This document shows positions 17,171-54,167 of a DNA stretch of 64,000 nucleotides, piece after piece. This DNA is from Methanotrichaceae archaeon (GTDB lineage: Archaea; Halobacteriota; Methanosarcinia; Methanotrichales; Methanotrichaceae), in assembly GCA_016927425.1 (NCBI GenBank), contig JAFGMR010000021.1:1-64000 (forward strand). Reading direction: 5' to 3'. Made by a program: the position numbers and the translations under genes. The notes under the pieces are model-generated. The model saw only the letters and a program-made list of their open reading frames with translations. It had not been told where the DNA came from and searched no databases. The stretch's first letter is position 1. Every line of letters starts with the position of its first letter.

Positions 17171-17233
17171 CCCATTTATATATGACAGCGGGACTTTAGG
17201 CCGTTTAGACAAAAAAGTTTAACTATGATAAGG

Positions 17234-17251
17234 TATAGTTGATCAACTATA
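17234..17251. promoter_or_regulatory. 18-base perfect palindrome, likely operator
   Basis: TATAGTTGATCAACTATA reads identically on both strands. A third half-site (AACTAT) lies 8 bases upstream at 17221-17226. It sits between the two TATA-like elements of the surface-protein gene, where a bound dimer would block or modulate transcription. Confidence 0.5.
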
Positions 17252-17513: not shown

Positions 17514-20500
17514 ATGGACGTGGCTGAAGTGAGCCGCATTCGCATAAGCCTTTTGTCAGGACTTATATTGCTGCTCCTGATAACCGGGACGAGCGCTTCT
17601 CAAAGCTATCCGCTATCAAGGGATGATGCTGCAATTAGGTCCGCCGTGAACTACCTTTTATCCTGTCAGAATGAGGATGGGGGCTTCAATAATCGTCCAG
17701 ATATCACAACTAGCAACCTTATTGTAACGGCCAATACGGCAATGGCCTTGGCCCTGAGCGGTGATATTGGCCGCGCAACCAAGGGCGAGAAAACCCCCTT
17801 GGATTACCTCCTCGAAAACCCGCCCGACGAGAACACCAATGGCGGAAAGCTTGGTCGCTATGTTATGGGTTTGGTGGCTTCAGGTGGAGATCCTTACAAC
17901 GTTGGGGGAGTTGACTTCGTCGAAAGGCTCAAAGAATGTGCAAAGCCACCTTATGGAGAGGAGAACCTCTTCGCAGAGTCCTATATCCTCCTTGGCCTTG
18001 CGGCCGTGGGCGAGGAGAGGTCCTCAGAGGTCCAAGCCTTCGTCACATATTTGAAGAGCAAGCAGTACGACTCAAGTGGTTGGGGCTGGGGCGATGCGGG
18101 ACCCGATCTCGACACCACGGGGATCGCGGCTTGCGCTCTTTTAGCCGCTGGAGAGCCCCCAACCTCGGAATCGATTAGCAATGCGATCTCCTACATGAGG
18201 GGCAAGCAGAACGAAGATGGAGGATTCCCCTCCTCAGGGATGAGCGCCGACTCAAATGCGATCAGCGATGCTTGGGTTATGTTGGCCCTTAATGCCGCAG
18301 TGCAAGACCCAAGTGACTGGAAGAAGGTAACAAACACCCCTATATCGCATCTTCTCTCCTGCCAGCAAGAAGACGGTGTCTTCTGGTGGATGCCCGACTC
18401 ACAAGGAGCCGTTGGATATCTTGCAGAGGAGACCTCATACTCCATCATCGCCTTGATGGGTGAAAAACTGCCGATAAAGGCCCCCACGCCGGAGGCTGCC
18501 GAAGGCGCAGCCGTTACGATTCAAGTTTTAGGTGACGGCAGTCCCATATTCAGCGGAGGGGTAGAAGTTGGAACGGAAGGCTTTGTGAAGGACGGGTTCG
18601 AGATAAGGAACCCCACCGTCCTCGGAGCGCTACAGGAGACTGGCATCGGATATGCATTAGGCGACCCCTCTAATAGAGGATACCCATGCGTCTTTGATCT
18701 CGCTGGCTTTGGGATGGCGCTTTATTTCGTCGATGGGTCCTTGCAGATGGGCCCGGTAGGGGAGCACGACCTTAAAGGCGACGAGTGCATATTGGTTAGC
18801 GCCCCAGATACAGTCTTGCCACTGCGAATGGAGGCTCCGGGCGAGGTCATAACGGGAGACGGATTCACAATCGAGGTCTATTCAGAAGGCTTAGACGATG
18901 AAGGCAACATCGTCACGTCTCTGGTGGAGGGCGCCATCGTGACATTAGAATCAACTCACTTTTCTGCCATTTACGCAACGGATGCGGATGGCGTCACCCC
19001 AGAGATCAAACTTAGCGAGGCCGGGGAGTACGATGTCAAGGCCGAGAAAGGCGGCTTCATAAGCACATTTTATCTCAACTGCGGACATCATGTAATAAAC
19101 TGCCTTAGCGGGGAGCCCGTAGTTGCCACCATTCACGTTCTGGGAAATGGTGCCCCTCTGTTCAGCGGCAATGTCCAGGTCCAGACGGCAGATTTTAATA
19201 AGGATGAATTTGTCATCGAGAATCCCACTGCGATGGGAGCCCTCGATATGACTGGAATAGGCTATTCCTTATCGGAATGGGACTGGGGGCTCTTCGTCTC
19301 GGATGTGGCAGGGTATGGAGCTCCAAATTTCTACGTAAATGGTGCTCAGGCGCCGGTAGGCCTTGACCAGTACCGCCTGGGTGGTGGAGAGTGCATAGTC
19401 GTAAGCGCTCCTTGGTCTGCCTCGCCCCTGTACCTTAAGTCTCCCTCAGATGCTGTTGTGGGAGAACCCTTCAAGATTAAAGTCGAAAGCGAGGAATACG
19501 ATTCCAGCTGGAACCTTGTTAGAGCCCCTGTACAAGGGGCAACTGTCACCGTTGGCACTTCCGTTTATAGTACGGAGGCAGATGGATTCACTCCTGATAT
19601 CGAGTTGGATCAAGCAGGCGAATACGAGGTGAGGGCTGATAAGCCAGGCTACATCGGGACATTTTATCTGAACTGTGGACCGCATATCATAAGTTGCCAG
19701 AGGGCTGAGCATACAGATGTCACTATTCACGTCCTGGGCAATGGGGGCGAGCTATTCAGCAAAATGGTCTCGGTGAGCTCAGTCGGCTTTACTATGAATG
19801 GCTTTTCCATCGATAATCCGACTGCAATGGGGGCACTTGATCGTACCGGCGTCCTTTATTCCCTATCGCAATGGGACTGGGGCCTCTTCGTCTCCGACGT
19901 TGCGGGGTATGGATCACCTTCCTTTTACCTTGACGGCGAGCTTTCCCCCGTGGGATTGGATCAGAGCTATCTCAACGGAGAAGAATGGATAACCGTCAGC
20001 GCACCCTACACCGTATCACCGCTCTACCTTGATGCGCCCTCAGGTTGTCTGGTGGGTGAAGCATTCAATGTATTGGTGAAGACTGAGGTGTATGACGCAA
20101 ACTGGAACCTAATAATGGTCCCTGTCGCAGGTGCTAAAGTCATCATCGAGAACGATCCCAACTCTCCATATACCACCAACAGCCTCGGCATCGCTTCGAT
20201 CACTCTACATGATACAGGTAAGTACAATGTCAAAGTGGAGAAAGACGGCTACATAGGGACGTATTATCTAATCCCTGGAGGCTATCGAGTCATAGACTGC
20301 ACCGGCAAGAGCGGCATTCTGAGCGTGACCAAGACCGCTGATAGGAGCTCTGCACAACCCTCTGAGATAATTACTTACATTATTAGCATCAGCAACAATG
20401 ACACATCTGCGGTGACCGAAGTAAATGCCACCGACCTCCTTCTCATGGATTCAACCTTTATCTATTCCGATCCTTGGCCCGATGAGATAAAAGGGAATGA

Positions 20501-22982: not shown

Positions 22983-23053
22983 CTCGCATATCCTCCTCCG
23001 ATGGGGCGCCACGAAGAAATATACATCTTTCATATTTTGCGCTCCGAAAGGTT

Positions 23054-23069
23054 AAACTCAAATGAGTTT
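23054..23069. promoter_or_regulatory. Operator-like inverted repeat abutting the TATA box of the propeller/CobN operon
   Basis: AAACTCA and TGAGTTT form a perfect 7-base inverted repeat with a 2-base centre. It ends 3 bases before TATAAA (23073-23078), so it overlaps the place where TFB would contact DNA. The same 9-mer AAACTCAAA also appears at 32959-32967, upstream of the second CobN-like gene. Confidence 0.45.
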
Positions 23070-23072
23070 TCC

Positions 23073-23078
23073 TATAAA
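23073..23078 (+). promoter_or_regulatory. TATA box of the propeller/CobN operon
   Basis: TATAAA with a transcription start expected about 25 bases downstream (near 23100) gives a leader of roughly 45 bases before ATG 23146. No other promoter-like element lies in the four tightly packed genes that follow. Confidence 0.5.
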
Positions 23079-23145
23079 CAGATACATTTGATTTCATAAA
23101 TTCAAAGGGCTTGTGCAGGTCACGGTCCGGATGGGTGTAAAACAG

Positions 23146-24456
23146 ATGAGACACGTTATATGCTCGCTCGTTTCAATCTTGCTTATTATCTGCCTGGCAT
23201 GGGCGTCCGATTGGCCTTCGTTCCAGGGAGATCGGGCCAACTCCGGCCTTACTTGGGATGGCCCACCTGCATATCCGCAGGTTCTCTGGTCTGCCGATCT
23301 CAACCGCATCGATGTTACTCCGATCGTCTCTTCAAACCTAGTTTGCGTCCTCGCAGGAAATGGCACCCTCGTTGCCATGGATAAAAGGACGGGAGATGCG
23401 ACATGGAGTACTCAGATGGACGGCTGGGTATTTCAGACCTCGACGCCTGCCTGCTCCGGTGATAGGATCTACGCGGCCACGGATTCGGGGTATTTAGCTG
23501 CATTTGATGCAAAGACCGGAGAGGAGATCTGGTCCCATCATCTCACCGACAAGAGGTTCGAGGTTCCCATAACCTGCTCTGATGGCAGGGTCTACCTCGG
23601 CGAGGGCAGCGCCTATGGAACTGCAGCGAAGCGGTACTTCTGTTTCGATATAGATGGAAACGAGTGTTGGAAACTCACCAGAGATACGAGCGGCTACATG
23701 TGGTGCGGCGCTTCCATCGCCGGAGATCACCTGATCTTCGGCGATAACGACGGCCAGCTTTTGAGCGTTGACCGCAAGACAGGCCTCCTCGCAGACGTCC
23801 TGGATCTTTCCGACGCATCAAGGATCGATTTTGCCAGAACCGACGCTGGTCGCATCCGAGCTTCGGTCTCTTACAAGGACGGCTACGTATACACTACCTC
23901 TGAATGCACGGCCGAAGTAGGTTACGCCTGGAAGATCAGGCTCAATGAGACGACCGGGACCTTTGAGAACGGCGGCTGGAGCTCTCCAGTGGGGTTTAGC
24001 ACCTCAACTCCCGCAGTATTCGGAAGCAGGGTATACCTGGGCATTGGCGAGCACGGCCACCCTGGGGCTCTAGCCTGCATCAACGACTCCAATGGCGATC
24101 TTATCTGGTCCTATCCAGTCGAAGCCGGCGTGAAGTCCTCGCCGGCGATCTCTGCAGTGTACCCAAATCCCCGAATCATCTTCACTGCCGCAAAGGTAGA
24201 CGGCTCGGCCTATTGTGTCGAGGACGCCGGATCCGAGGCCCGCCTGCTATGGCATTTCGACCCGCCGGATGATGGCTACATCCTCGCCGGCGCTGCCGTC
24301 TCGGATGGGCGCGTCTACTTCGGAACCGAGAAGGGTCTCCTCTACTGCCTCTCAGCCGAAGCCCGGCTAGGCCAGTCCACAAATGCAACCTTCCAAACCG
24401 CAACTCAGCGACCGAGATCATCGGCGATGCAAACTAAAATGGACGGAGGTTCATAA
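23146..24456 (+). CDS. Secreted PQQ-type beta-propeller repeat protein 1
   Basis: A 436-residue exported protein: signal peptide MRHVICSLVSILLIICLAWA, then DWPSFQGDRANSGLTWDGP, the usual opening of archaeal PQQ-like propellers. Blade motifs recur about every 40 residues: LVAMDKRTGDATWSTQ, LAAFDAKTGEEIWSHH, LACINDSNGDLIWSYP, ending VYFGTEKGLLYCL. The repeats resemble those of PQQ dehydrogenases and BamB, but no cofactor or calcium site is evident; they more likely form a binding scaffold. ATG 23146 follows GGTG by 7 bases, matching the anti-Shine-Dalgarno; GTG 23113 and ATG 23131 are alternatives. First gene of an operon whose next start is 2 bases after its stop. Confidence 0.83.
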   Translation: MRHVICSLVSILLIICLAWASDWPSFQGDRANSGLTWDGPPAYPQVLWSADLNRIDVTPIVSSNLVCVLAGNGTLVAMDKRTGDATWSTQMDGWVFQTSTPACSGDRIYAATDSGYLAAFDAKTGEEIWSHHLTDKRFEVPITCSDGRVYLGEGSAYGTAAKRYFCFDIDGNECWKLTRDTSGYMWCGASIAGDHLIFGDNDGQLLSVDRKTGLLADVLDLSDASRIDFARTDAGRIRASVSYKDGYVYTTSECTAEVGYAWKIRLNETTGTFENGGWSSPVGFSTSTPAVFGSRVYLGIGEHGHPGALACINDSNGDLIWSYPVEAGVKSSPAISAVYPNPRIIFTAAKVDGSAYCVEDAGSEARLLWHFDPPDDGYILAGAAVSDGRVYFGTEKGLLYCLSAEARLGQSTNATFQTATQRPRSSAMQTKMDGGS

Positions 24457-24458
24457 CT

Positions 24459-25685
24459 ATGAGGATTAAGTTAGTAGTCGAATTTGCCACGATCATTCTG
24501 ATATCGATGGCCTTGATCGTGCCTGTGCTCTGCAATGATTTCTCAGATAGCAATCCACAGGAAGGCACGGAAGCTCGATGGCATCAGTTCCATCTCAACC
24601 CAGGACACACGGGCGCTTCTTCGTCGTCTGCGCCGAGGACCGGCGATACCGCCTGGATGAGGAACATAACGGCTCAGGCAGGATCTTCTGTAAGCGTTGC
24701 AGGTGGCAGTGTATTCGTAAACTGTGTGGACAAGATCGTCTCTTTGGACCAGTTCACTGGGGAGACACTCTGGAGCGCTTCATTCGAGCGCAACGACGAC
24801 GTCTGCTGCTCCTGGCACACGCCTATCTACCATGATGGCAAGGTCTTCTTCACAGGCATGGAGACCGTCTGTCTGAACGCAACCACTGGAGAAGAAGTTT
24901 GGAGCTTTGCCCCGCCCACGGGAAGGGGTGCGGTGGATGGAAGCCCGGCCGTCTTTGAGGGCAAGGTAATCGTCAGCGACTGGGACGGCCACCACTACTA
25001 CTGCCTTGAAGAGATGACCGGAGAGGAGATCTGGAGCTTTTCGGTCGAGGGAAGCGCCCAGTCCACGCCAGCCATCTCTGAAGGCAAAGCGGTCTTCGGT
25101 GGCTGGGAGTGGGGCCTAGGCGGGTATATATACTGCGCGGATCTGGAGGACGGCTCCGAGGTCTGGAACGTCACGACCGAGAACTCTCCATGCGGATCTG
25201 CAGCGATCCTTGAAGGGAATGTCTACATGACCACCTATAGCTTCGATGGCAACGGCGACCTTTTGGCTCTTTCCCTTCTCGATGGATCAATCCTCTGGAG
25301 AAGGGAGATCTCGCCTACCGACTCGACGCCAACCGTTGCCGGGGGCAAGGTCTACGTATGCGGCGGTTGCGAGGGCTTCAGCCATCCCAAGACATACTGC
25401 TTTGATTCCGCATCAGGCGATCTGATCTGGGAGACCGACGAGGCCGATAAGATCGGAGACTGGAGATGCTCTATGGCCTATGCCGATGGAATCGTCTTCG
25501 TAGGCAAGCCGGACTTCGAGGATTTCAGTGGAACCTTTGCCCTAGATGCCGGCACAGGCGAGGTTATCTGGAGCCAACCCGAAGGCGGATCCTCGCCAGC
25601 CGCAGCCGATGGAATGGTCTATTCAGTTGGCAAAGGATCGGTCTGCGCCTTTGGCGATGCGGCAACAGGGGGGGCGATCCTTTGA
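24459..25685 (+). CDS. Secreted PQQ-type beta-propeller repeat protein 2
   Basis: A 408-residue exported propeller. Signal peptide MRIKLVVEFATIILISMALI is followed by an acidic linker and WHQFHLNPGHTGASSSSAPR, equivalent to the WPSFQGD opening of its neighbour. Blades include KIVSLDQFTGETLWSASF, TVCLNATTGEEVWSFAPP, YCLEEMTGEEIWSFSVEG and FALDAGTGEVIWSQPEGG. Unusual for these propellers are several cysteines (DVCCSWH, CGGCEGF, WRCSMAY) that could form disulfides or bind metal. It starts 2 bases after the preceding stop, and its TGA overlaps the TTG start of the next gene, so translation is likely coupled. Confidence 0.83.
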   Translation: MRIKLVVEFATIILISMALIVPVLCNDFSDSNPQEGTEARWHQFHLNPGHTGASSSSAPRTGDTAWMRNITAQAGSSVSVAGGSVFVNCVDKIVSLDQFTGETLWSASFERNDDVCCSWHTPIYHDGKVFFTGMETVCLNATTGEEVWSFAPPTGRGAVDGSPAVFEGKVIVSDWDGHHYYCLEEMTGEEIWSFSVEGSAQSTPAISEGKAVFGGWEWGLGGYIYCADLEDGSEVWNVTTENSPCGSAAILEGNVYMTTYSFDGNGDLLALSLLDGSILWRREISPTDSTPTVAGGKVYVCGGCEGFSHPKTYCFDSASGDLIWETDEADKIGDWRCSMAYADGIVFVGKPDFEDFSGTFALDAGTGEVIWSQPEGGSSPAAADGMVYSVGKGSVCAFGDAATGGAIL

Positions 25686-27205
25686 TCCGAAGTCTCATCC
25701 TATCCCTGCTAATCGGCCTAATCCTCGCTGCCACGGTCTGCACAGCCCATGGAGATTATCTTACATTTCGCGGTGACGCCCAGAGAACCGGCAACGTGAG
25801 CGGGACGGGGCCGGGCAATCCCGACATCCTCTGGAGCGAAAAGGTGACGTCTAAGGGATACGTAGGCGGAGGCGCTTCGATTTGCGAGGGCAGGGCCTTC
25901 GTCTCTTCCTGGCCAGACATGAGCTACAAGGGCGAGCAAGGGATCGCATGTCTCAATGCAGAGGACGGATCGCTTATTTGGCTAAACCCAATCGGGGGGA
26001 AAGGCGGAGCTTCAACCCCTGCCGTTTATGATGGCCTCGTCTTTGCAGGCTCCTGGAAAGGCGATCTATATTGTCTGGATGCCGCGAGCGGTGATACGAT
26101 CTGGAACAGGACACTTGAAAGTGACCCCCAATGGTGGGGCCTAGCGTCTTCACCTCTTGTGATCGAGGACATGATATTCGTGACATCCTACTCAGATGGA
26201 GCTCTGCATGTCCTGGACTATGAAGGAAACGAGCTATGGAACCTCTCCACCGGTAAGATCGATCCTTACACATCGCCTGCGGGAGATGATGGCAAGGCAT
26301 ACTTTGCAGGAGGGGATCCTGCCCTCTATTGCGTGAACATATCTTCATTTGACCTCATCTGGAAGCACTCTACAGATGCTCCCATAACCTCAACTCCTGC
26401 TGTCTGGAACGGCAAGGCATACTTCGCAACGAGGGAGAATCTATATGCTGTCGACGCTGGCTCAGGCGAAGGGCTTTGGCGCAAATCCCTCAAGGGCACC
26501 ATATCATCACCAGCCCTCTCTTGCGACAGGGTCTACATCGGTACAGGCGATGACTCTCTAGATTGTTATAACGCCTCGGACGGATCGCTCATTTGGAGGG
26601 CCGAGGTCGAAAGTTCGGTCAAGTCCTCGCCCCTGGTCGTCGGGGATATGGTCTATTTCGGGACTCACAACGGTCTCGTCTACGCCTTGGACGCATCTGA
26701 TGGCAGAGAGATCTGGACCTACGATACAGGCGCCTACATGATGTCCTCGCCCTCGTTCTCAGAGGGCTTGCTCTTCATAGGCTCGGACGACGGTTGCCTT
26801 TACGCCTTCGGGGTGAAGCCTTCTGAGGTGATCTTCGAGGGCGAAGTCCTCCTCGAAGACGGCAGCTTCAACTTAACCGCAGAGAGCGGCGTAGCATACT
26901 CAATCGATGAGAGGAGCGCACTTGGAGCGCTTATAAAAGCTTCTGAGACTGGTGGGTTCGATCTCAGCGTAGACGACTCTATTTGGGACGATTACGGCCT
27001 TTTCGTGAGATCGATAGATGGAATCGAGGCAGGGGTCGGAGAGATCTGGATGTACTGGGTCAACTATCCGGACGAGCCCATGCCCTTGGGAGGCTCGGAC
27101 CGCTTCTTCTTGGAGGAAGGCGACGTCGTGACCTTTTACATTGGAGATAGGGGCAAAGGTCCATATGACTCACATAAGATCGTTATAACGACGAGATGGG
27201 GGTGA
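25682..27205 (+). CDS. Secreted PQQ-type beta-propeller with C-terminal DUF4430-like domain
   Basis: A 507-residue exported protein. The TTG start at 25682 overlaps the previous stop (TTGA) and gives a good signal peptide (LIRSLILSLLIGLILAATVC); a longer upstream frame from 25466 only overlaps the previous gene. Residues about 25-380 are a propeller (LTFRGDAQRTGNVS; LYCLDAASGDTIWNRT; YALDASDGREIWTYD; FIGSDDGCLYAFG). Residues about 385-505 form a DUF4430-like domain: SALGALIKASETGGFDLSV, YGLFVRSIDGIEAG, IWMYWVNYPDEPMP, LEEGDVVTFYIGDRG. In transcobalamin and intrinsic factor the equivalent domain covers one face of cobalamin. It is strikingly similar along its whole length to the first 530 residues of the next protein. 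Confidence 0.83.
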   Translation: MIRSLILSLLIGLILAATVCTAHGDYLTFRGDAQRTGNVSGTGPGNPDILWSEKVTSKGYVGGGASICEGRAFVSSWPDMSYKGEQGIACLNAEDGSLIWLNPIGGKGGASTPAVYDGLVFAGSWKGDLYCLDAASGDTIWNRTLESDPQWWGLASSPLVIEDMIFVTSYSDGALHVLDYEGNELWNLSTGKIDPYTSPAGDDGKAYFAGGDPALYCVNISSFDLIWKHSTDAPITSTPAVWNGKAYFATRENLYAVDAGSGEGLWRKSLKGTISSPALSCDRVYIGTGDDSLDCYNASDGSLIWRAEVESSVKSSPLVVGDMVYFGTHNGLVYALDASDGREIWTYDTGAYMMSSPSFSEGLLFIGSDDGCLYAFGVKPSEVIFEGEVLLEDGSFNLTAESGVAYSIDERSALGALIKASETGGFDLSVDDSIWDDYGLFVRSIDGIEAGVGEIWMYWVNYPDEPMPLGGSDRFFLEEGDVVTFYIGDRGKGPYDSHKIVITTRWG

Positions 27206-30200
27206 AGATAAGCTTGTACAATCATCAATGCAATAGCTCAAGCTTGAACAGGCTCATGTCATCTGGATTGAGCGGAAGTTTGGCCCTCTTATTACTTGTC
27301 TTCGCGACGATCGGCCCAGCTCTTGGAGACTTCACGACCTTTCATGGCGATCCACAAAGAAGCGGAAACGTGAGCGACGAGGGGCCAAGCTCTCCTAACC
27401 TTTTGTGGAAGAACAGCCTGTCCCCTTACAGCTCCATTGGTGGGGGATCCGTCGCTTCAGATGGCAAGGTTTACATCTCCAACTGGCAGGATATGAGCTT
27501 CAGAGGCGAACAGGGAATCGGCTGCCTTGCTGCGAAGAACGGCTCTATCATGTGGTTCAACCCGATAGGCGGCAAGGGTGGCGCCTCTACTCCTTCCATC
27601 TCAGAAGACCGGATCTATGCGGGCTCTGCTAAGGGCGATCTCTACTGCCTGGATGCATCCACCGGCGTGGTCATCTGGAATAGGACCATTGAAGAGAACC
27701 CTGAATGGTGGGGCCTTGCCTCCTCACCCTTGGTGATTGAGGACGAGATAATCGTGAACGCATTCTCAGAGGGTATTCTGCACGTCCTCGACCTTGAAGG
27801 AGTCGAGCTTTGGAGCATCTCCACCGGAAAGACCGATCATTTCACATCTCCAGCTGGATGCGACGGAAAGGTCTACTTCGCAGGAGGAGATCCTGCGCTT
27901 TATTGCCTCGATCTCTCAAATCGAAGTGTAACCTGGAAATACGAAACAGAAGGCCCAATAACCACAACTCCTGCCGTCGCCGATGGGCAGATCTTCTTTG
28001 CTACCAATGAACACATCCACGCCGTGGAGACAAACACCGGAGGCGAAGTATGGGCAGCTGAGATGAGAGGAACCATCTCCTCGCCCGCCATATCTCGTGG
28101 CCGGGTTTACATCGGAACAGATGATGGCACATTGAACTGCTACGACTTTTATAACGGCACACTCTACTGGAGCGCAAAAGTGAATGGCCCTGTCGTATCC
28201 TCGCCAGTGATCGCAGATGGTAGGGTCTACTTCGGGACGAACATCGATGATGGAACCGTCTACGCCTTGGATGCTGAGACCGGCGATCCAGCTTGGACCT
28301 ATCTCATTGGCGAGTACGTCATGTCCTCGCCTGCGGTCTTTGATGGCGTTCTATACATAGGCTCAGACGATGGCTGCCTTTATGCCTTTGGACCTGGGGC
28401 TTCTAAAACAGGAGTGACAGAAGCGCCTTCAGGCCTGATATGGGGAGGCACTGTTCTGCTTGAAGCTGGAGATATCAACGTCACCGGGGCCGATGGCATC
28501 GTTCACGCCGTCGCCAAGAAATCAGCTCTAGGAGCCCTTATCGAAGCCTCCGAGGCCGGGGGGTTTGAGCTCATCCTGGATGCCTCTATCTGGGACATTC
28601 GCGCCCCCATCATTAAGTCTGTAGGAGGCATAGATGCCAAGGACAACGAATCCTGGAGGTATTGGGTGAACTACCCAGACGAGCCCGTGCCTCTAGTCGG
28701 ACCAGACCAACTCCTGCTGGAAGACAGCGACAACGTCACTTTCTACCTGGGTGATCGACATACACTGCCTTTCGAATCGCCCAGGACGAATATAACCGCT
28801 AAGGTGCTATTAAAGAGGCCAGAGGTTCTCTTCGTAACCGCAGAGAACCTTGCTGTGATCAGGGAAGCTATGAAGGACGCTGTCCTGAACGTTACGTTGG
28901 CCTCCCTGGACCTTGCACCTTCGAACCTTTCTGGTTACGACCTGATATTTCTGGAGATGGTGGGAAGCGAGGGCGCAAGGAGACTGGCCCCTCTGCTAGA
29001 GGCACCAAAGGCGGCAGGCGTTCCCGTGATCTCGATCCACTCGGAAGGATACGACGTCCTTCTCTCCAATGTCGACATAGAAGAGCATCTCGAGATAGAG
29101 GACTACTGGAACTACGGCGGCATCGATAACATGGATGGGCTCTTCTCCTACCTGGGCGCAAGATTCTGCAGCCTGGACGTGCCGGTAATCGAGCCCATTC
29201 CAACGCCCAAGGCATACATCTGCCATCCGGACTCGCCGGACCTCTTCTTGAACACCACCTCTTATCTTCAGTGGTACCGGAATAACACCATACATGGATA
29301 CAACGAGAGCGCGCCGACCATAGGCATGATGAACCTGGCAGGCGATCCCGTGACCTCACCGCTACGAAGCAATATTGTCAGGGCCTTGGAGTCGAAGGGC
29401 GCAAACGTGATTGACATCGGCTTTGATAACACCTCCACGATAATGGAGCTATTCATCCAGAATAATTCGACCATCGTCGACGCTGTGATCCTCACGAAGC
29501 CCTTCAGGCTGAACTACGGAGATCCCGAGCAGGGGATCGAGGATCTCAAGGGGCTGAACGTTCCGATCCTCAACGCGATGAAGCTCTGGTACCAAACCCC
29601 GGAGGAATGGAGGAACAGCATTGGCCTTTACCCAACCGAGGTCTACTTCAAGCTCGCAATGCCCGAGATGGACGGGATCGTAGAGCCCATAGCAGTCGCA
29701 GGAAGGACCGAGGATGGGACATTCGAAGCTGTCTCAAGCCAAGTTGAATGGCTCGCAGATAGAGCCATAGCCTGGGCAGAGCTTGGCCAAAAGCCAAACT
29801 CTGAGAAGAAGGCGGCAATCATCTACTACAATCACGGCGGAGGAAAGGACAACCTGGGCGCGACATACATAAACGTTCCAAGGAGCCTCCAGGAGATCCT
29901 GGACGGCTTGAACGAGTCAGGCTACCTCGTCGAAGGGACAGTTCCAGACGAGCGGGATCTGGTCGACCTGATGGCCCATGAAGGGACGAACGTGGGCACC
30001 TGGGCTCCTGGGGAGCTGGAGGCCATGGTCAAAGCTGGAAACGCGACTCTCATCCCTGTTGACGATTATATGGAGTGGTTTGGTGAGATCGATCCAGCAA
30101 AGCAGCTAGAGGTGACGGAAAGGTGGGGTCCGCCTCCAGGAGAGATCATGGTCTACGAGAACGATACTGGAAAGTACTTCGTGATCCCCAAGCTCAGTTT

Positions 30201-32823
30201 TGGAAATATCATCCTTGCCCCCCAGCCGACGAGGGGGTGGCTCCAGAACAACACCGTGCTGTATCACAGAAAGGATATCCCGCCGCATCACCAGTACATC
30301 GCCTTCTACCTCTGGCTCAGGAAGGGTTTCGATGCTGACTTCATCGTCCACCTAGGAAAGCACGGAACCCAGGAATGGACACCAGGGAAGGAAAGCGGAA
30401 TATCAAGCGACGAATGCTGGCCCGGGATACTGATCCAGGATCTTCCAGTGATCTACCCATACATCGTCGACAACATCGCCGAGGGCTCTCAGGCCAAAAG
30501 GAGGGGCGATGCCGTGATGATAACTCATCTGACGCCGCCCATAGTGGCCTCTGGCCTTTACGGCAACTTCACCAACCTGGCGGAGACCGCCTTCAACTAC
30601 AACAACGTCGAGAACGCCACTGTGAAAGCGCTCTACAAAGAGGACATCATCGCCCAGTGCGAGGAGATGCACCTCGACGAGGATTTGGGTGTAAACCTGA
30701 GCGAGCTCTCATCCGATCCAGAGGCCTTCGACGATTTCATTGACGAGCTGGAGCACTACCTCTACGATCTGAAGACGGAGTTCATGCCCTACGGCCTTCA
30801 CACGTTCAGCTGGCCGATGGAGGGATTAGCCCTGGTGGAGATGGTAGAATCGATGCTTGGAGAGGACTACAAGAGAGAGGTCGCCTTGATGATATCCTAC
30901 GAGGATTATCCGAACCCATCGAGGCTGGATAAGGAACGAGAGCTGGATAACTGTTCTCAAGACCTTTTGGGCATAGTCCTGCACAACGGCACAAAGCCTG
31001 ATCTCGCCCAGGTGAAGATATTCTCCAACCTCACAGGCGCGGGCGATGAGGTTGTGCCATCGGAGAACCTGACAACGCTTCTGGAGCTAGGCCTCTCTTA
31101 TTCTGAAGGGCTCAATGCCTGTGCCGAGGAGATGCCTCGATTCATAGCAGCTTCCGAGTCCCAGTACACGCCGCCTTCGCCAGCAGACGATCCGATAAGA
31201 GATCCAAACGTCCTCCCAACCGGCAGGAACTTCCATTCGATAAGCCCCCGAATGGTCCCGACGTCTGCGGCCTGGGGGGCAGGCCAGTCCCTCGCAGAGA
31301 TGCTGATAGAGAAGTATCGGGAGGACAACAACGGAACCTACCCACAGAAGATGGCGATCATCCTCTGGGCCTGGGCTATGACAGATCATGGAATCGTTGA
31401 GTCGGAGATCCTTCACATGATCGGAGCAGAGCCAGTCTGGGACACTTATGGCGGTGTCTCTGATGTGGAGCTGGTGCCCCTTGAGGAGCTCGGAAGGCCC
31501 AGGATAGACGTGCTCGTCATCCCTTCAGGGCTCGATAGAGACCTCTTCCCTGAGAAGCTTAAGCTCATCGACAAGGCGATAAGGTTGGCTGCAAACGACA
31601 CCGATACCACCTATCCCAACTACGTCAGGCAAAACGCTCAGGAGATCAATGAGTCGCTGATTGCGACAGGGAACTACACCGAAGGGGATGCAGAGTACCT
31701 TTCCGCCTCCAGGATATTCCTAGAGGCTGCGGGAACCTACGGGCCAAACCTGGACAGCGCAGTTTCCGCAAGCGACACCTGGGAAGACGACGAAACGCTT
31801 GGCAACCTTTTCATCGACAGGATGTCCTACATATACGGAGATGATATCTGGGGAAGCGAGAGATCCTCGGGAGAGGTCTTCGACACCGATGTGCAAAGAG
31901 AGGTCTACGAGCTGAACCTGGCAGATGTCGATGCAGTCTCTCAACACACCAACTCCAACCTCTACGGCTTCATCGATAACGACGACGTCTTCCAGTACGT
32001 GGGAGGCCTTGGCATGGCCGTGAGAACCGTCACCGGAGAGACACCTCCTATGTACGTAACTGACGCTAGAGATCCAAACCATCAGTCGGTTGATTCTCTG
32101 CATGATGTCTTCCACAAAGAGCTTAGGACACGGTACTACAACCCCAAGTGGATCGAGGGGATGATGTCTCAGGGCTACTCCGGAGCAAGGGAGATGGACC
32201 GGTTCGTCGAGTATCTCTGGGGCTGGGAGACCACGGTCCCGGATCTGGTCTCCGAAAACACTTGGAACGAGGTCCATGACGTATACGTGAACGACAAGTA
32301 CGAGATGGGGCTTCAGGAGTTCTTCGACCAGAACAACCCTTACGCCTTCCAGGTGATCTCCGCAAGGATGCTGGAGACCTCCAGGAAGGAGAGGTGGTAT
32401 CCTCCCGAAGAGGTGAAGCGGGAGCTTGCAGAGAGGTTTGAAGAGTCAGAGATGGAGTACGGCGTCACATGTTGTCATCACACCTGCGGAAATTTGCTTC
32501 TCAGAGAGTACATGAATGGCGTGCTGAGCGGCGTTGAGCCCGAGAGGTCAAGCAGCTCTGGCAAGGGCGCTGTGTCCAGCGAACACGCCCGCACCAGGGA
32601 TTCCGGCGCCTCCAACCAGACGAGTTCCTCTGGGGTGGGAATGACAAGTGCAGAAAAGCCAGTCGAATCCGAGTCCATCCAGGGCGAGGTTTCAGGATTC
32701 GTTATGGAAGACTCGTTGGAGAAGAGCAGCATGCCTTCCGTATCAGGAGCTCCTCTGATCGGCGTCATCCTCGTCCTCTTCATCCTTCTGGTCATAGGGG
32801 TGGGGTTCAAAAGGGAAAGGTAG
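27196..32823 (+). CDS. Giant cell-surface CobN-like protein fused to PQQ-type propeller and DUF4430-like domain
   Basis: A 1875-residue exported, membrane-anchored protein. Signal peptide ends near residue 44 (GSLALLLLVFATIGPALG). Residues 47-400: propeller opening FTTFHGDPQRSGNVS; 415-530: DUF4430-like (SALGALIEASEAGGF; WRYWVNYPDEPVP). Residues about 540-1780 are homologous to the cobaltochelatase/Mg-chelatase large subunit CobN/ChlH, with KHGTQEWTPGKESG (His 1056), VIYPYIVDNIAEGSQAKRRG and LPTGRNFHS. A TCCHHTCGN motif at 1758-1766 precedes a Ser-rich stalk and a terminal helix APLIGVILVLFILLVIGVGF then KRER. CobN works in the cytoplasm with ATPase subunits; this form is extracellular, so ATP-driven metal insertion is unlikely. 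It overlaps the previous gene by 10 bases. TTG 27214, 8 bases after GGTGA, is an alternative start. Confidence 0.85.
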   Translation: MGVKISLYNHQCNSSSLNRLMSSGLSGSLALLLLVFATIGPALGDFTTFHGDPQRSGNVSDEGPSSPNLLWKNSLSPYSSIGGGSVASDGKVYISNWQDMSFRGEQGIGCLAAKNGSIMWFNPIGGKGGASTPSISEDRIYAGSAKGDLYCLDASTGVVIWNRTIEENPEWWGLASSPLVIEDEIIVNAFSEGILHVLDLEGVELWSISTGKTDHFTSPAGCDGKVYFAGGDPALYCLDLSNRSVTWKYETEGPITTTPAVADGQIFFATNEHIHAVETNTGGEVWAAEMRGTISSPAISRGRVYIGTDDGTLNCYDFYNGTLYWSAKVNGPVVSSPVIADGRVYFGTNIDDGTVYALDAETGDPAWTYLIGEYVMSSPAVFDGVLYIGSDDGCLYAFGPGASKTGVTEAPSGLIWGGTVLLEAGDINVTGADGIVHAVAKKSALGALIEASEAGGFELILDASIWDIRAPIIKSVGGIDAKDNESWRYWVNYPDEPVPLVGPDQLLLEDSDNVTFYLGDRHTLPFESPRTNITAKVLLKRPEVLFVTAENLAVIREAMKDAVLNVTLASLDLAPSNLSGYDLIFLEMVGSEGARRLAPLLEAPKAAGVPVISIHSEGYDVLLSNVDIEEHLEIEDYWNYGGIDNMDGLFSYLGARFCSLDVPVIEPIPTPKAYICHPDSPDLFLNTTSYLQWYRNNTIHGYNESAPTIGMMNLAGDPVTSPLRSNIVRALESKGANVIDIGFDNTSTIMELFIQNNSTIVDAVILTKPFRLNYGDPEQGIEDLKGLNVPILNAMKLWYQTPEEWRNSIGLYPTEVYFKLAMPEMDGIVEPIAVAGRTEDGTFEAVSSQVEWLADRAIAWAELGQKPNSEKKAAIIYYNHGGGKDNLGATYINVPRSLQEILDGLNESGYLVEGTVPDERDLVDLMAHEGTNVGTWAPGELEAMVKAGNATLIPVDDYMEWFGEIDPAKQLEVTERWGPPPGEIMVYENDTGKYFVIPKLSFGNIILAPQPTRGWLQNNTVLYHRKDIPPHHQYIAFYLWLRKGFDADFIVHLGKHGTQEWTPGKESGISSDECWPGILIQDLPVIYPYIVDNIAEGSQAKRRGDAVMITHLTPPIVASGLYGNFTNLAETAFNYNNVENATVKALYKEDIIAQCEEMHLDEDLGVNLSELSSDPEAFDDFIDELEHYLYDLKTEFMPYGLHTFSWPMEGLALVEMVESMLGEDYKREVALMISYEDYPNPSRLDKERELDNCSQDLLGIVLHNGTKPDLAQVKIFSNLTGAGDEVVPSENLTTLLELGLSYSEGLNACAEEMPRFIAASESQYTPPSPADDPIRDPNVLPTGRNFHSISPRMVPTSAAWGAGQSLAEMLIEKYREDNNGTYPQKMAIILWAWAMTDHGIVESEILHMIGAEPVWDTYGGVSDVELVPLEELGRPRIDVLVIPSGLDRDLFPEKLKLIDKAIRLAANDTDTTYPNYVRQNAQEINESLIATGNYTEGDAEYLSASRIFLEAAGTYGPNLDSAVSASDTWEDDETLGNLFIDRMSYIYGDDIWGSERSSGEVFDTDVQREVYELNLADVDAVSQHTNSNLYGFIDNDDVFQYVGGLGMAVRTVTGETPPMYVTDARDPNHQSVDSLHDVFHKELRTRYYNPKWIEGMMSQGYSGAREMDRFVEYLWGWETTVPDLVSENTWNEVHDVYVNDKYEMGLQEFFDQNNPYAFQVISARMLETSRKERWYPPEEVKRELAERFEESEMEYGVTCCHHTCGNLLLREYMNGVLSGVEPERSSSSGKGAVSSEHARTRDSGASNQTSSSGVGMTSAEKPVESESIQGEVSGFVMEDSLEKSSMPSVSGAPLIGVILVLFILLVIGVGFKRER

Positions 32824-32855
32824 CAGAGGCGACGCTAGAGCATTAATCCGCCTCT

Positions 32856-32879
32856 CCCTATGCAGAGGGAAGCATAGGG
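32856..32879. other. Perfect 8-bp hairpin between the two CobN-like genes
   Basis: CCCTATGC (32856-32863) and GCATAGGG (32872-32879) flank an 8-base loop, 33 bases after the first CobN-like stop. No T run follows, so it may be an mRNA-processing or 3'-end element rather than an intrinsic terminator. Confidence 0.4.
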
Positions 32880-32935
32880 TCAGAGATCGGAGGGCTCCGC
32901 CACTCCGAAATTTCTTACGCAATATCGTTCGCAAC

Positions 32936-32972
32936 TCTTAAATAACATAAATTTGCTCAAACTCAAACCTAC
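32936..32972 (+). promoter_or_regulatory. Promoter region of the second CobN-like gene
   Basis: AT-rich CTTAAATAACATAAATTT (about 32938-32955) is a likely TATA region about 35-50 bases before ATG 32988. AAACTCAAA (32959-32967) repeats the 9-mer found in the operator-like palindrome at 23054, which hints at shared control of the two transcripts. Confidence 0.4.
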
Positions 32973-32987
32973 TTGTCTGGTGATGAT

Positions 32988-35900
32988 ATGCCCTGGAGGA
33001 TCACAGATCAATCATTGATGCCCTTGTTGCTGTTGGCGGCTCTCTTGATCGGTGCGCCATTCGCCTCGCTGGCTGAGATGGACGGCTCTTCGGAGGAAAG
33101 CCCGGATACAAATTCGACCATAGTTCAAGAAGATGTGGGGATCGTGAACTACTCTGAGAACGGATCGGAGCCATCTCCTTATTTGTTAGGGGTTCTCAAT
33201 TTCAACAAAAGCAAAAAATTATTATTCGTCTTGGGGACCGATTTTAATGAGATCTCTCTTAAGAAGGCAGCATCCCATCCCTCGATAGCTTCAGAGTTGA
33301 ACGTTACCATATTCACCAGGAACGACACCCTGCCCGATGAAATGAGTTTCTCGGACTATGCGGTCGTCTTCATGGAGTCGCAGGATGAGGCCGTAGTGAA
33401 TGGATGGAATGCTAGCATAAATGATTCCAAGCTCATTGGAGTCAGGTTCATAGGATACAACCTCTCCTCAAACATCACCGCCCCCAACGTCGACCTTTCC
33501 TCGGCCAACTACACCGATATCGAGAGGTACTGGGTGCAGGGCGGAGACGGCAACATGGAGAATATGCTCAGGTTCGTGGGTCAGAAGTTCTGCGGTTCGT
33601 GGGCAGACGAAACCGTTTCTGAACCTCTGCTCCTGCGCTCGAAGATCGGCATAACATACATCACCAACTCGCAAACCAACATCTACTATCTAAACAAGGT
33701 CCTCTCAGAACGGGGCGTTATCAAAGATCTCTTCAACGTCACTGTGATGGACGGAATGGATGGCGAGGAGGTTGCAGCTAAGCTTTCGAACTTATCCGAT
33801 CAGGATGTCGTCATACTGCACATGATAGGATACATCGAGCTCTCAAAGTTCAAGGATATCCTCCTAAATGCCAAGGCCGCTGGCACACAGATCGGACTTA
33901 ACTCAACGAGCGATGCGTATGGAATTAGCACAATCGACCTGAGCGGTCCGCCTTATAATGAGATAAATAACTACATTTACAGAGATGGATATGCCAATAT
34001 GGAGAACTTTCTTCGCTTCATAGGGGCAAAAAATGAGGATGTCTACATCGAATATAAACTAGCCGCAGCCCCGTCAATTCCCGATCATGGGATCTACCAT
34101 CCAGATGCGTTTCCTAGGATCTTCAAGGACAGCGCCGAGTATCTTGAGTGGTATGCAGATAATGGGTATGATGAGACCGCACCTACGATCGGCATAATAG
34201 CTACCAATAATATTGTTAAGGATCCTCTCTTTGCCACCGCCGACGATGTTATAATCAGGAACCTTGAATCCAAAGGATGTAATGTCATCTACACCACCTA
34301 CAAGGTTTGCGCAGATGATGTTGACTATTTCACAAGAAATGGAAAAGTACTGGTGGATTGCATAATCTCTTTGAAGGGTTTCGGCCTCAATTATGGGGAT
34401 CAGGAAAAAGGTGTGGAATATTTAAAGAAGTACGACGTTCCCGTGCTAAAAGCGGTCCAAGATCCTTCCCAAACGCCTTCGCAGTTCAATGAGAGCGCCA
34501 GGGGATTGGGAATGATTATGATCTCCTTTCAGGTTATACAGCCTGAGATCGATGGATGTACCGATTATATATGGGTTTCAGGTTATGTCAAAGATCCAGC
34601 TACTGAGCAGGACTACTACGAACCCCTAATGCCGCAGGTGAATTGGCTATGCGACAGGGCGATCTCCTGGGCAAACCTCGGAAGATGCAATAATGCCGAC
34701 AAAAAGGTCAGCATCATATATTACAACCACGAAGGCGGCAAGAACGATATCGGCGCAAGCTATCTGGACATCTCCTCCAGCTTCACGCTGCTTCTCGAAC
34801 GGATGCGAACAGATGGCTATGATATCGGAAACGGCTCAATTCCAAACGGCAGCGAGCTCATAGACCTCTTCATAGAGAGCAGGAATGTGGGCACCTGGGC
34901 GCCCGGCGAGCTTGAAAAGGTTGTAAACTCGGGCAATGTCACACTCGTCTCTGTTGACGATTATTTATTCTGGTACAACACATTGCCAAATAGCACCCGT
35001 TCAGATGTCGAGGCAACGTGGGGCAAAGCTCCCGGCGACATCATGGTGTACGAAGGAAGCTTTGTGATCCCCACGGTGCAGTTCGGAAAGGTCAATTTCA
35101 TACCTCAGCCGAGCAAAGCCTGGCTCTCTGACGAATCGCTCATTTATCACAACAAGTCTATACCTCCAACACACCAGTATCTTGCAACATATTTCTGGAT
35201 CAACAACGTCTATGATGCAGATGCCATAATCCACTTCGGCACCCATGGAACACAGGAATGGTTCCCAGGAAAGGAGGTGGGTCTGAGCAGGTACGACTAT
35301 TCAGCCATCTTGGTGAACGATACGCCAGTGATATATCCCTACATAATGGACAATGTGGGCGAGGGCACCCAGGCCAAACGCCGCGGCAACGCTGTGATCA
35401 TAGACCACCTGACGCCGCCGATAATAGAGGCGGGGATCTATGGAGACCTGGCAGCGATGCACGAGAAGATTCACAATTACGGAGATGCCAAGGTTGCCAA
35501 CGATTCCGCGATGATGGCCCTATATCGCAACAGCATCATCGGGCTTTACGAGAATCTCTCGATGGAAAACGACCTTGGCGTAACTCCAGACGAGCTCAGG
35601 GCGTTGCAGGATGATGAATTTGGAAATTTCATTGGGAACAATGTCCATAACTATCTGCACAAACTTCAGTCCACGCTAATGCCCTATGGCGTCCACATCT
35701 TCGGCCTCGGTCCAAAGGATGAAAAACTGGTCAGTATGGTCAAATCAATGCTTCGAAGCGATTTCGTCTACCACATCTACGATGCAATCCCTCAGGATGA
35801 CGGAGATGAGGAAGATTGGAGAGATGCCGCGAATGCTTATGCAATCGAGCTCTTGAACGCAACGCTGCTAGATGGAAAGAACGTGTCCGCCGCCCAGCTC

Positions 35901-37673
35901 GATGTTCTCAACCTAACGAATGCCGATGAAAACATAACTGCCGATCTCCATCTGGCACTTGAATATTCCAATCAACTGGGCCAGACGACGCGTGAGATTG
36001 ACCAGACAATGCGTGCCCTCGATGCAGAATATATCGAACCGGGACCTGGAAACGATCCCATACGCAATCCCGAGGCGCTGCCGACCGGCAGGAACTTCTA
36101 TAGCTTCGACCAGAGAAAGTTCCCTGATGAGGAAACCACAATCATGGGAGAAATCCTCGCAAACCAGCTGATAGAGGATTATATCAATAACAATAACGGC
36201 ACATATCCGGAAAAAGTGTCTTATACCCTCTGGGCCATGGAGACGATGCGCCATCACGGGCTGATGGAAGCTCAAATACATGCACTGCTTGGCGCAAAAC
36301 CCATACGAAGCAATGGAGTGATCACCGACTTTGAAGTCGTCCCGCAGGAAGAGATGAACCACCCAAGGATAGACGTGATAATTCAATCTTCCGGACTGTA
36401 CAGGGATACGTTCCCGTACCAGCTTGAGCTGATCGATAAGGCTATCCGAACGGCAGCGGAGCTCAACGAGACCAATGAGACGAACTACGTCAGATGGAAC
36501 TCGATGAAGATGGAACATGCTCTCATTGCCAGCGGTTACAATAATAGCACAGCACATTATATATCTAGATCGAGGATATTCAGCGAAGCACCTGGAGCTT
36601 ATGGAAATGGAATGCCTGAAGCAATAGCTGCAAGCGATACGTGGGATAACGAATCCAAACTCGCTGACCTATTTATATCCCGAACGTCTCACATCTACGG
36701 AAAGGATATGTGGGGCGATTGCTACGAAGACGTTTTCACGATGAACCTGATGGATGTGGATGCGGCCATACATAGCGACTCTACAAACCTATTCGGGATT
36801 ATCGATGGCGATGACTATTACGGTTACCTTGGAGGGATCGAGCTTGCAGTACGGTCATTGACGGGGAAGGAACCAGCGATGTACATAGCCAGCTTGGAGA
36901 GCGTTGACAATCCCCAGATCATAACGCTCAACGAGGCCTTCAGAACTGAGCTGAGGTCGAGATACTTCAATCCAAGATGGATAACGGGGATGATGGAATG
37001 TGACTATGCTGGTGCAAGACAGTTCATGAAATTCGCCGAGTACATGTGGGGGTGGGAAGTGACGACGCCGGACATGGTCACAGACTCGGACTGGGATGAG
37101 ATCTACGACATCTACGTCAACGACAAGTACGATCTCGGCCTGGATGAGTTTCTCAAAACCGAGAATCCCTATCAATACCAGTCCATCACAGCGCGAATGA
37201 TAGAGGCCGCGAGGAAGGAACACTGGGGTGCGTCCGATGAGGTGCTCAAGAGCCTTGCGGAGGAATACACCGAGTCCGTGGCCGAGAATGACGTGACCTG
37301 CTGCCATCACACCTGCGGCAATCTGCTGCTAAAAGAATACATGAAGGGGATAATATCTGGCACGGAGCCTGAGAAGTCCAACCCAAGCAGCAGGAGCGGG
37401 AGTGGGTCCAGCAGCCACCCCTACGTTCAAGGCAAGACCACGTTTGGCACCTCCAACCAGACCCAGTTGGCCAGCGTAGGGACCTCGATCCCTGAAGATC
37501 CGGATCCAGTTGAGGAGAAGACCGAGTCGACGAGCGAAGACGTGAGTGGGTTTGTGATGGAGAATGCAAAGGAGAATGGCAGCATGCCATCAATATCGGG
37601 GGCTCCTCTTATCGGCATCGCCCTCGTGCTATTCATCCTTGTGGTCATAGGGGTGGGGTTCAAGAGGAGGTAG
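32988..37673 (+). CDS. Giant cell-surface CobN-like protein without propeller
   Basis: A 1561-residue exported protein, paralogous to the CobN part of the preceding gene. ATG 32988 is chosen because GGTGAT lies 3 bases upstream; TTG 32973 is also open. The signal peptide is LMPLLLLAALLIGAPFASLA, followed by an acidic, sequon-rich segment. The CobN/ChlH homology region includes TIGIIATNNIVKDPLFAT, SIIYYNHEGGKNDIGASYLD, HFGTHGTQEWFPGKEVG (His 753) and VIYPYIMDNVGEGTQAKRRG. TCCHHTCGN recurs at 1437-1445, then a Ser/Thr stalk and the anchor SGAPLIGIALVLFILVVIGV ending FKRR. Its N-terminal part replaces the propeller with two extra segments that resemble CobN N-terminal repeats. Function is unknown; context suggests corrinoid, tetrapyrrole or metal handling at the cell surface. 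Confidence 0.85.
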   Translation: MPWRITDQSLMPLLLLAALLIGAPFASLAEMDGSSEESPDTNSTIVQEDVGIVNYSENGSEPSPYLLGVLNFNKSKKLLFVLGTDFNEISLKKAASHPSIASELNVTIFTRNDTLPDEMSFSDYAVVFMESQDEAVVNGWNASINDSKLIGVRFIGYNLSSNITAPNVDLSSANYTDIERYWVQGGDGNMENMLRFVGQKFCGSWADETVSEPLLLRSKIGITYITNSQTNIYYLNKVLSERGVIKDLFNVTVMDGMDGEEVAAKLSNLSDQDVVILHMIGYIELSKFKDILLNAKAAGTQIGLNSTSDAYGISTIDLSGPPYNEINNYIYRDGYANMENFLRFIGAKNEDVYIEYKLAAAPSIPDHGIYHPDAFPRIFKDSAEYLEWYADNGYDETAPTIGIIATNNIVKDPLFATADDVIIRNLESKGCNVIYTTYKVCADDVDYFTRNGKVLVDCIISLKGFGLNYGDQEKGVEYLKKYDVPVLKAVQDPSQTPSQFNESARGLGMIMISFQVIQPEIDGCTDYIWVSGYVKDPATEQDYYEPLMPQVNWLCDRAISWANLGRCNNADKKVSIIYYNHEGGKNDIGASYLDISSSFTLLLERMRTDGYDIGNGSIPNGSELIDLFIESRNVGTWAPGELEKVVNSGNVTLVSVDDYLFWYNTLPNSTRSDVEATWGKAPGDIMVYEGSFVIPTVQFGKVNFIPQPSKAWLSDESLIYHNKSIPPTHQYLATYFWINNVYDADAIIHFGTHGTQEWFPGKEVGLSRYDYSAILVNDTPVIYPYIMDNVGEGTQAKRRGNAVIIDHLTPPIIEAGIYGDLAAMHEKIHNYGDAKVANDSAMMALYRNSIIGLYENLSMENDLGVTPDELRALQDDEFGNFIGNNVHNYLHKLQSTLMPYGVHIFGLGPKDEKLVSMVKSMLRSDFVYHIYDAIPQDDGDEEDWRDAANAYAIELLNATLLDGKNVSAAQLDVLNLTNADENITADLHLALEYSNQLGQTTREIDQTMRALDAEYIEPGPGNDPIRNPEALPTGRNFYSFDQRKFPDEETTIMGEILANQLIEDYINNNNGTYPEKVSYTLWAMETMRHHGLMEAQIHALLGAKPIRSNGVITDFEVVPQEEMNHPRIDVIIQSSGLYRDTFPYQLELIDKAIRTAAELNETNETNYVRWNSMKMEHALIASGYNNSTAHYISRSRIFSEAPGAYGNGMPEAIAASDTWDNESKLADLFISRTSHIYGKDMWGDCYEDVFTMNLMDVDAAIHSDSTNLFGIIDGDDYYGYLGGIELAVRSLTGKEPAMYIASLESVDNPQIITLNEAFRTELRSRYFNPRWITGMMECDYAGARQFMKFAEYMWGWEVTTPDMVTDSDWDEIYDIYVNDKYDLGLDEFLKTENPYQYQSITARMIEAARKEHWGASDEVLKSLAEEYTESVAENDVTCCHHTCGNLLLKEYMKGIISGTEPEKSNPSSRSGSGSSSHPYVQGKTTFGTSNQTQLASVGTSIPEDPDPVEEKTESTSEDVSGFVMENAKENGSMPSISGAPLIGIALVLFILVVIGVGFKRR

Positions 37674-53865: not shown

Positions 53866-54167
53866 GCAACTCCCCATTTTCTCCACTTCTGCCATCAATT
53901 TCATCCTTGTTTTACATAATTATGGGGAAATGAATCATCTCTTCAATAATTTTCTCCCATGTATCAATATTCTATCGCAACATTGATATGGAATGGAGAT
54001 ATGCTCAGCTTTCATATCGGCGGATGGGTGCAATAAATGGCGGTGCGATGGATGCATCTTCGCTCGTCGTATCCCTTTCGGCTGTGCCTCAATAATTATG
54101 CAAAGGCCATAAATATGCACTCTCCGCAAGGGATGTCACAGTGCCGCTTCGTGTATGGAGGGAGGGA
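53866..54167 (+). promoter_or_regulatory. Intergenic region with promoter of the giant beta-helix gene
   Basis: About 300 bases with no gene. TATA-like ATAAATA lies at 54109-54115 with AAAGGCC upstream as a possible BRE; transcription would start near 54138, giving a leader of about 30 bases. Overlapping GGAGG motifs (54157-54164) precede ATG 54168. I saw no tRNA-like fold or long inverted repeat. Confidence 0.5.

Follow-up and report, generated by a model that had tools for sequence, protein, structure and literature searches.

Exported CobN-like chelatase proteins of a methanogenic archaeon lie in a conserved locus with a possible role in metal or tetrapyrrole acquisition

The class I chelatase HmuS of Bacteroidota is a membrane-anchored, anaerobic heme de-chelatase that has been shown experimentally to work without an ATPase (PMC12583661), and its turnover requires the superfamily histidine of the HxGxHG motif (PMC12583661). 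The products of the accompanying genes hmuU and hmuV have been assigned to the TonB receptor (PMC12583661). For methanogens there are published expression data: the CobN-like "BtuS" of Methanosarcina barkeri changes with the iron and sulfur source, FeS2 or Fe(II)/Cys against sulfide (PMC10846266), and in Methanothermobacter marburgensis CobN1, which we do not assign to the surface class described here, reaches high levels together with NikR1 only under nickel limitation (PMC12350162). Here we compare with these systems a six-gene locus of a Methanotrichaceae archaeon, found in the 64,000-nucleotide stretch of DNA that we analysed (the window).

Layout and domain content of the locus

Six consecutive open reading frames on the plus strand, spanning 17514-37673, follow one another head-to-tail with all frames intact and with spacings, in order, of +131, +3, -3, -9 and +150 bp (Table 1). 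The original prediction of six exported proteins, two of them with CobN-like bodies, some of the genes overlapping, is borne out by the frames, by an N-terminal hydrophobic signal segment in every one of the six proteins and by full-length matches of genes 5 and 6 to CobN/Mg-chelatase (PF02514; 1102 and 1127 bits). The C-terminal anchors that it described as shared are near-identical transmembrane helices confined to genes 5 and 6, being absent from the other four proteins. We took TTG 25682, which overlaps the stop of gene 3, as the start of gene 4, and rejected a longer listed frame from 25466. Elsewhere in the window lie a protein of 1930 aa containing some ten NosD/beta-helix stretches (54141-59933) and a smaller NosD-like protein (45881-47017).

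Table 1. Positions of the six genes, their main domains and motifs, and the upstream candidate regulatory element in the window.
Feature	Coordinates	Strand	Description
Candidate operator/promoter	17219..17251	+	AT-rich, repeated AACTAT/ATAGTT half-sites; 18-bp perfect palindrome TATAGTTGATCAACTATA at 17234-17251
Gene 1	17514..22982	+	1822 aa; exported alpha/alpha toroid, three DUF4430-like repeats, DUF11 repeats; Pfam SQHop_cyclase_C/Prenyltrans, DUF11
Gene 1 toroid domain	17601..18500	+	Profile matches to squalene-hopene cyclase and prenyltransferase structures
Gene 1 DUF4430-like repeats	18516..20045 (18516-18860, 19107-19445, 19704-20045)	+	Pattern GAL...V[DN]G...GD/GE in common with DUF4430 of genes 4 and 5
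Gene 2	23113..24456	+	447 aa; exported PQQ-type beta-propeller; PQQ_2 128.6 bits
Gene 3	24459..25685	+	408 aa; exported PQQ-type beta-propeller; PQQ_2 134 bits
Gene 4	25682..27205	+	507 aa; exported propeller with C-terminal DUF4430; PQQ_2 148 bits
Gene 5	27196..32823	+	1875 aa; exported propeller-DUF4430-CobN with C-terminal TM anchor; CobN-Mg_chel 1102 bits, residues 636-1740 = 29101-32415
Gene 5 HxGxHG (HLGKHG)	30349..30366	+	Superfamily catalytic motif; aligned with HmuS His-538
Gene 5 CCHHTC	32470..32487	+	Between chelatase body and anchor
Gene 6	32973..37673	+	1566 aa; exported CobN with C-terminal TM anchor; CobN-Mg_chel 1127 bits = 33969-37244
Gene 6 HxGxHG (HFGTHG)	35232..35249	+	Aligned with HmuS His-538
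Gene 6 CCHHTC	37299..37316	+	

The remaining parts named in the original prediction, a toroid, DUF4430 domains and PQQ propellers, were likewise recovered. The toroid of gene 1 is clear from profiles, scoring 40 bits as a prenyltransferase/squalene cyclase in Pfam, and PQQ_2 propellers are present in genes 2-5. When whole proteins were scanned, DUF4430 stayed below threshold (20.7 and 17.5 bits); taken alone, the gene 4 domain reached 24.8 bits against a cut-off of 23.8, and 12 of the 17 domains scanned from the window and its relatives matched. The three repeats that follow the toroid in gene 1 are recognised from alignment only. Their AF2 model, with a pLDDT of 30-40 in this region, was unusable and gave no Foldseek matches (E > 0.9), and a PDB profile search with DUF4430 returned nothing meaningful, the repeats matching no solved structure. 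Orthologs of the gene 1 toroid occur in nine of 41 related genomes, all nine of which also encode a surface CobN. Since proteins combining a toroid with DUF4430 adjoin ECF (vitamin-type) transporters in Streptomyces and Latilactobacillus, a capture role for the toroid/DUF4430 proteins is plausible by analogy. The original prediction of a surface capture or storage device therefore stands as regards surface location and the plausibility of capture; storage is unsupported.

The 18-bp palindrome upstream of gene 1 has no second copy, at up to three mismatches, in the window or anywhere in the genome of 2.3 Mb. AT-rich dyads of the AACTTGCTCAAATTAAGTT type occur at the equivalent place in relatives, and in one related genome (G020) three copies of such a motif precede a Peripla_BP_2/FecCD cluster, where the operator match is weak (two mismatches). 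As a shared regulatory signal, these elements are suggestive only.

Surface CobN proteins and their partner genes

HmuS (9d26) is the closest solved structure for both CobN proteins in a PDB profile search (E 5e-157 for gene 5 and 3e-139 for gene 6). The catalytic His-538 of HmuS, in HFG(T/A)HG, is kept in both, as it is throughout the superfamily. However, the HmuS motif LSLDHxxEFMGG, which carries the second catalytic histidine (His-1209), is replaced by NDDVFQYVGG in gene 5 and GDDYYGYLGG in gene 6, so that both present a CobN-type DDxF/Y where HmuS has LDH. The His-254-Gly-Arg of the HmuS heme site, which acts with Met-79, is also absent, KPFRLN and KGFGLN standing at that column. Because both motifs are missing, we ruled out true HmuS membership and regard genes 5 and 6 as relatives of HmuS, whose chemistry may differ from it. 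Total methionine counts are 45-46 per window CobN against 56-68 in two HmuS proteins, the latter whole-protein counts including a methionine-rich insertion. The NCBIfam label for both window proteins is CobN, yet both score under the CobN equivalog cut-offs.

A tree of 38 rows, obtained by a quick search, rooted at its midpoint and with composition warnings for many of the rows, places all exported CobN proteins, HmuS included, and all ATPase-linked cytoplasmic CobN/BchH proteins on opposite sides of a branch supported by SH-aLRT 100, with a single change between exported and cytoplasmic labels. Genes 5 and 6 belong to different surface subclades, and HmuS forms a separate branch. An ordinary cytoplasmic CobN is encoded in the same genome on contig C61, beside ChlI/D and BtuFCD, whereas no ATPase gene lies within the window CobN cluster; the BtuFCD and chelatase ATPase genes sought near the locus are thus present in the genome, but with the cytoplasmic protein. 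A 1788-aa, highly repetitive exported protein adjoins that cytoplasmic cluster (L014:453-5819).

Almost all archaeal surface CobN proteins examined, as well as that of Trichlorobacter, carry CC[HD]HTC in the stretch that links the chelatase body to the anchor, and this motif would make a natural soft-metal or thiol site; Runella reads CGHTTC at this position. Among the sequences compared, the motif is absent from Bacteroides HmuS, from Azospirillum and Diaphorobacter and from the cytoplasmic CobN proteins. Some surface paralogs in relatives lack HxGxHG and carry LDH at the second site (L005:2943-7190, L029:9859-14238, L030:1963-6480 and L045:13661-17956). These are possibly non-catalytic or of changed chemistry, so some surface CobN proteins may only bind.

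In relatives, the surface CobN genes adjoin genes for DUF2162 (PF09930), ExbB (PF01618) and DUF2149 (PF09919), hereafter the cassette. Several genomes of the same family (at loci L016, L022, L025 and L026) show the order toroid/DUF4430, propeller, propeller, propeller-DUF4430-CobN, DUF2162, ExbB, DUF2149. As the original prediction would require, gene order is thus conserved in relatives, whose toroid, propeller and CobN genes cluster together with the cassette, and because of this conservation the six-gene set is, from comparative sequence analysis, a real conserved system beyond chance. In another genome (G010), homologs of genes 1-3 (toroid, DUF4430 and propeller genes) lie beside the cassette, with CobN on a different contig. 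In the genome of the window, the cassette lies outside the window, split from the CobN cluster, and the only DUF2162 and only ExbB found are together with DUF2149 on contig C23 (L013:1676-3346). Subtilase-like surface proteins recurrently adjoin surface CobN clusters in several loci (for example L004:16072-21864 and L047:1-4611). Among extra neighbours recurring across genera we found no dedicated transporter.

Counting as surface CobN any frame over 1400 aa (with one truncated case, G027), surface CobN and cassette are both present in 30 of 41 related genomes and both absent from the other 11 (Fisher 3e-10, relatedness ignored), five of which still keep a cytoplasmic CobN. Moreover, joint presence and absence alternate inside five genera (g2, g13, g15, g17 and g18). 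Across 295 genomes of the phylum, a CCHHTC(G) DNA pattern occurs in 72, DUF2162 exceeds its cut-off in 81 and 70 have both, p-values for this set again ignoring relatedness; the reversed pattern, used as a control, occurs in 0 of the 295. ExbB exceeds its cut-off in 91 of these genomes, 80 of them shared with DUF2162. By this co-occurrence, the surface CobN class pairs with DUF2162-ExbB-DUF2149 instead of an ATPase. The premise of the original prediction that CobN needs a cytoplasmic ATPase fits the cytoplasmic class, as on contig C61, and is unsupported for the surface class, whose relative HmuS works without one (PMC12583661). Neither the cassette nor the kinship with HmuS figured in the original prediction. 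DUF2162 itself is marked by an invariant PCPxCL in its alignment, reminiscent of redox or metal-permease cysteines. AF2 models of three DUF2162 homologs (pLDDT 54) were unusable and gave no Foldseek matches (E > 0.9), a PDB profile search returned nothing meaningful, and we dropped an equation of HmuT with DUF2162 (hhalign probability 0.1, from shallow alignments).

A candidate envelope machine and its possible substrates

The ExbB homologs keep the GLxGTL and the downstream Thr of the canonical channel, and the DUF2149 transmembrane segment NLFDxAMVF aligns with the segment of ExbD bearing the proton-carrying Asp; both the Asp and the Thr serve in the ExbBD proton channel. In Trichlorobacter lovleyi, a single plasmid cluster (L053:4002-11278) contains DUF2162-ExbB-DUF2149-CobN together with a separate, complete ExbB-ExbD-TonB, and therefore the cassette need not serve TonB. 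An outer membrane is not known from methanogens of this order. Taken together, these two points make it most likely that the ExbB/DUF2149 motor serves the surface chelatase, and the archaeal data suggest another or additional role for HmuU/V beyond the TonB receptor.

These comparisons lead us to lean towards an envelope machine that would acquire metal or tetrapyrrole from metallo-tetrapyrroles outside the cell, using proton-motive force rather than ATP. In this model, gene 1 and the propeller/DUF4430 proteins would bind and present the tetrapyrrole, and the two anchored CobN bodies would clamp it and extract or exchange its metal via the HxGxHG histidine. The CCHHTC cluster near the membrane could receive the metal or supply thiols. 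The cassette, with DUF2149 as its ExbD-like member, would couple proton flow to a conformational change of CobN or to product release, DUF2162 perhaps serving as the membrane passage for metal, electrons or product. Several points weigh against this model: its support comes from sequence rather than biochemistry, both window CobN proteins miss His1209 and His254-Gly-Arg of HmuS, some relatives' paralogs have lost HxGxHG, cobalt is chemically difficult to remove from a corrin, in this genome the cassette and the CobN genes are not neighbours, and the published expression signals from M. marburgensis and M. barkeri are mixed.

The system might instead scavenge corrinoids without removing the metal, the transcobalamin-like toroid/DUF4430 parts making the capture, CobN acting as a scaffold for binding and transfer and the ExbB cassette pushing the intact corrinoid to an importer. 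The ECF transporters beside toroid/DUF4430 proteins in Gram-positives, the corrinoid genes beside the T. lovleyi cassette, the loss of the catalytic histidine in some surface paralogs and the dyads resembling the gene 1 operator upstream of Peripla_BP_2/FecCD in G020 all point this way. We nevertheless consider it unlikely: HxGxHG is intact in both window proteins, their nearest characterised relative is a de-chelatase, the operon has no importer and the operator match is weak. More improbable is a true archaeal HmuS system taking iron from heme to feed FeoB. HmuS is indeed the top solved structure, the cassette order is the same as in hmuSTUV, feoB and a DtxR-type regulator adjoin the CobN gene in G010 and "BtuS" of M. 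barkeri responds to the iron and sulfur source (PMC10846266), but the absence of the two HmuS motifs and the separate branch of HmuS in the tree argue otherwise. A genuine cobalto- or nickel-chelatase inserting metal outside the cell, as the DDxF/Y motif and the NCBIfam name might suggest, is very hard to credit given that there is no ATPase partner outside the cell, that a cytoplasmic CobN is encoded separately in this genome, together with ChlI/D, and that both window proteins fall under the CobN equivalog cut-offs.

As to the substrate of the proposed envelope machine, the tetrapyrrole or metal role put forward in the original prediction stands, with corrinoid as one of three candidates. 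Corrinoid/cobalt is our leading guess, falling just short of what we would call probable, and is ranked first because toroid/DUF4430 parts are present; its genomic contexts are the ECF transporters next to such proteins in Gram-positives and the setting of the T. lovleyi cassette beside corrinoid genes. F430/nickel is a possible but distinctly less likely guess, in line with nickel limitation in M. marburgensis (PMC12350162) and with a Runella plasmid (L051:3839-9552) on which CobN-ExbB-DUF2149 and a NicO/DsbD_2-like membrane protein lie between hypF and hypCDE, an arrangement that from gene context is a nickel version of the cassette. Heme/iron or another substrate, with feoB and the DtxR-type regulator of G010, and HmuS itself, as context, seems slightly less likely still.

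A broader and more tentative reading, which we hold to be somewhat less likely than not, is that class I chelatases come in two energisation types, one cytoplasmic and driven by ATP through AAA+ partners, the other extracytoplasmic and driven by protons through ExbB/DUF2149. Since neither an outer membrane nor TonB is known from archaea, the archaeal motor could on this reading serve only the surface chelatase, and HmuU/HmuV would by extension serve HmuS and not (only) HmuR; the methanogen machine, fused to transcobalamin-like parts, would take the metal out of corrinoids or F430 that other cells have shed. The tie of the surface CobN proteins to a proton-channel cassette in place of an ATPase points to a hitherto undescribed route by which microbes would obtain scarce metals or tetrapyrroles from the environment. 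The proposed machine would explain the large archaeal "CobN" group whose function the HmuS authors describe as unclear (PMC12583661), supply, in the cassette, the partners that had been taken to be absent (PMC10846266) and give a role to ExbB-type proton channels in archaea without TonB. It also predicts that methanogens in metal-poor sediments and digesters draw nickel, cobalt or iron from tetrapyrroles, and yields a specific prediction for gut Bacteroidota as to the protein that HmuU/HmuV energise.

Comparison with described systems

The closest parallel is hmuSTUV (PMC12583661, PMC10434189), which has in common with the archaeal system an exported, membrane-anchored class I chelatase body without an ATPase, the HxGxHG histidine, ExbB and DUF2149 partners and a small multi-TM protein adjoining CobN. 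The archaeal system differs in having no outer membrane, HmuY or TonB receptor, in CobN proteins that lack His254-Gly-Arg and His1209 and carry CCHHTC, in a T-position gene encoding DUF2162, to which HmuT has no detectable similarity, and in its added toroid, DUF4430 and propeller parts. The CobN cluster of T. lovleyi pSZ77 (PMC3403914) matches in its DUF2162-ExbB-DUF2149-CobN set, HxGxHG, CC[HD]HTC and C-terminal anchor, but adjoins TonB receptors and corrinoid biosynthesis genes and has no toroid, DUF4430 or propeller. "BtuS" of M. barkeri likewise belongs to the methanogen CobN-like chelatases, which its authors likened to Bacteroides iron-from-heme proteins; they describe the rest of the operon as lacking (PMC10846266), whereas we find the cassette to be widespread in Methanosarcinales.

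Cytoplasmic CobN(ST) and ChlH(ID) share the protein body and the superfamily histidine, yet they are cytoplasmic, work with AAA+ ATPase partners and fall on the other side of the tree from the exported window proteins. In its putative pairing of a toroid with a DUF4430-type domain, gene 1 would resemble transcobalamin and intrinsic factor in fold; by sequence, however, its toroid finds its matches among squalene cyclases and prenyltransferases and not in transcobalamin, and gene 1 carries three DUF4430-like repeats and DUF11. The system to which the locus belongs is best described as a surface CobN machine of archaea that is related to hmuSTUV and has added putative capture domains, and for which the proposed proton-driven mode would be new.
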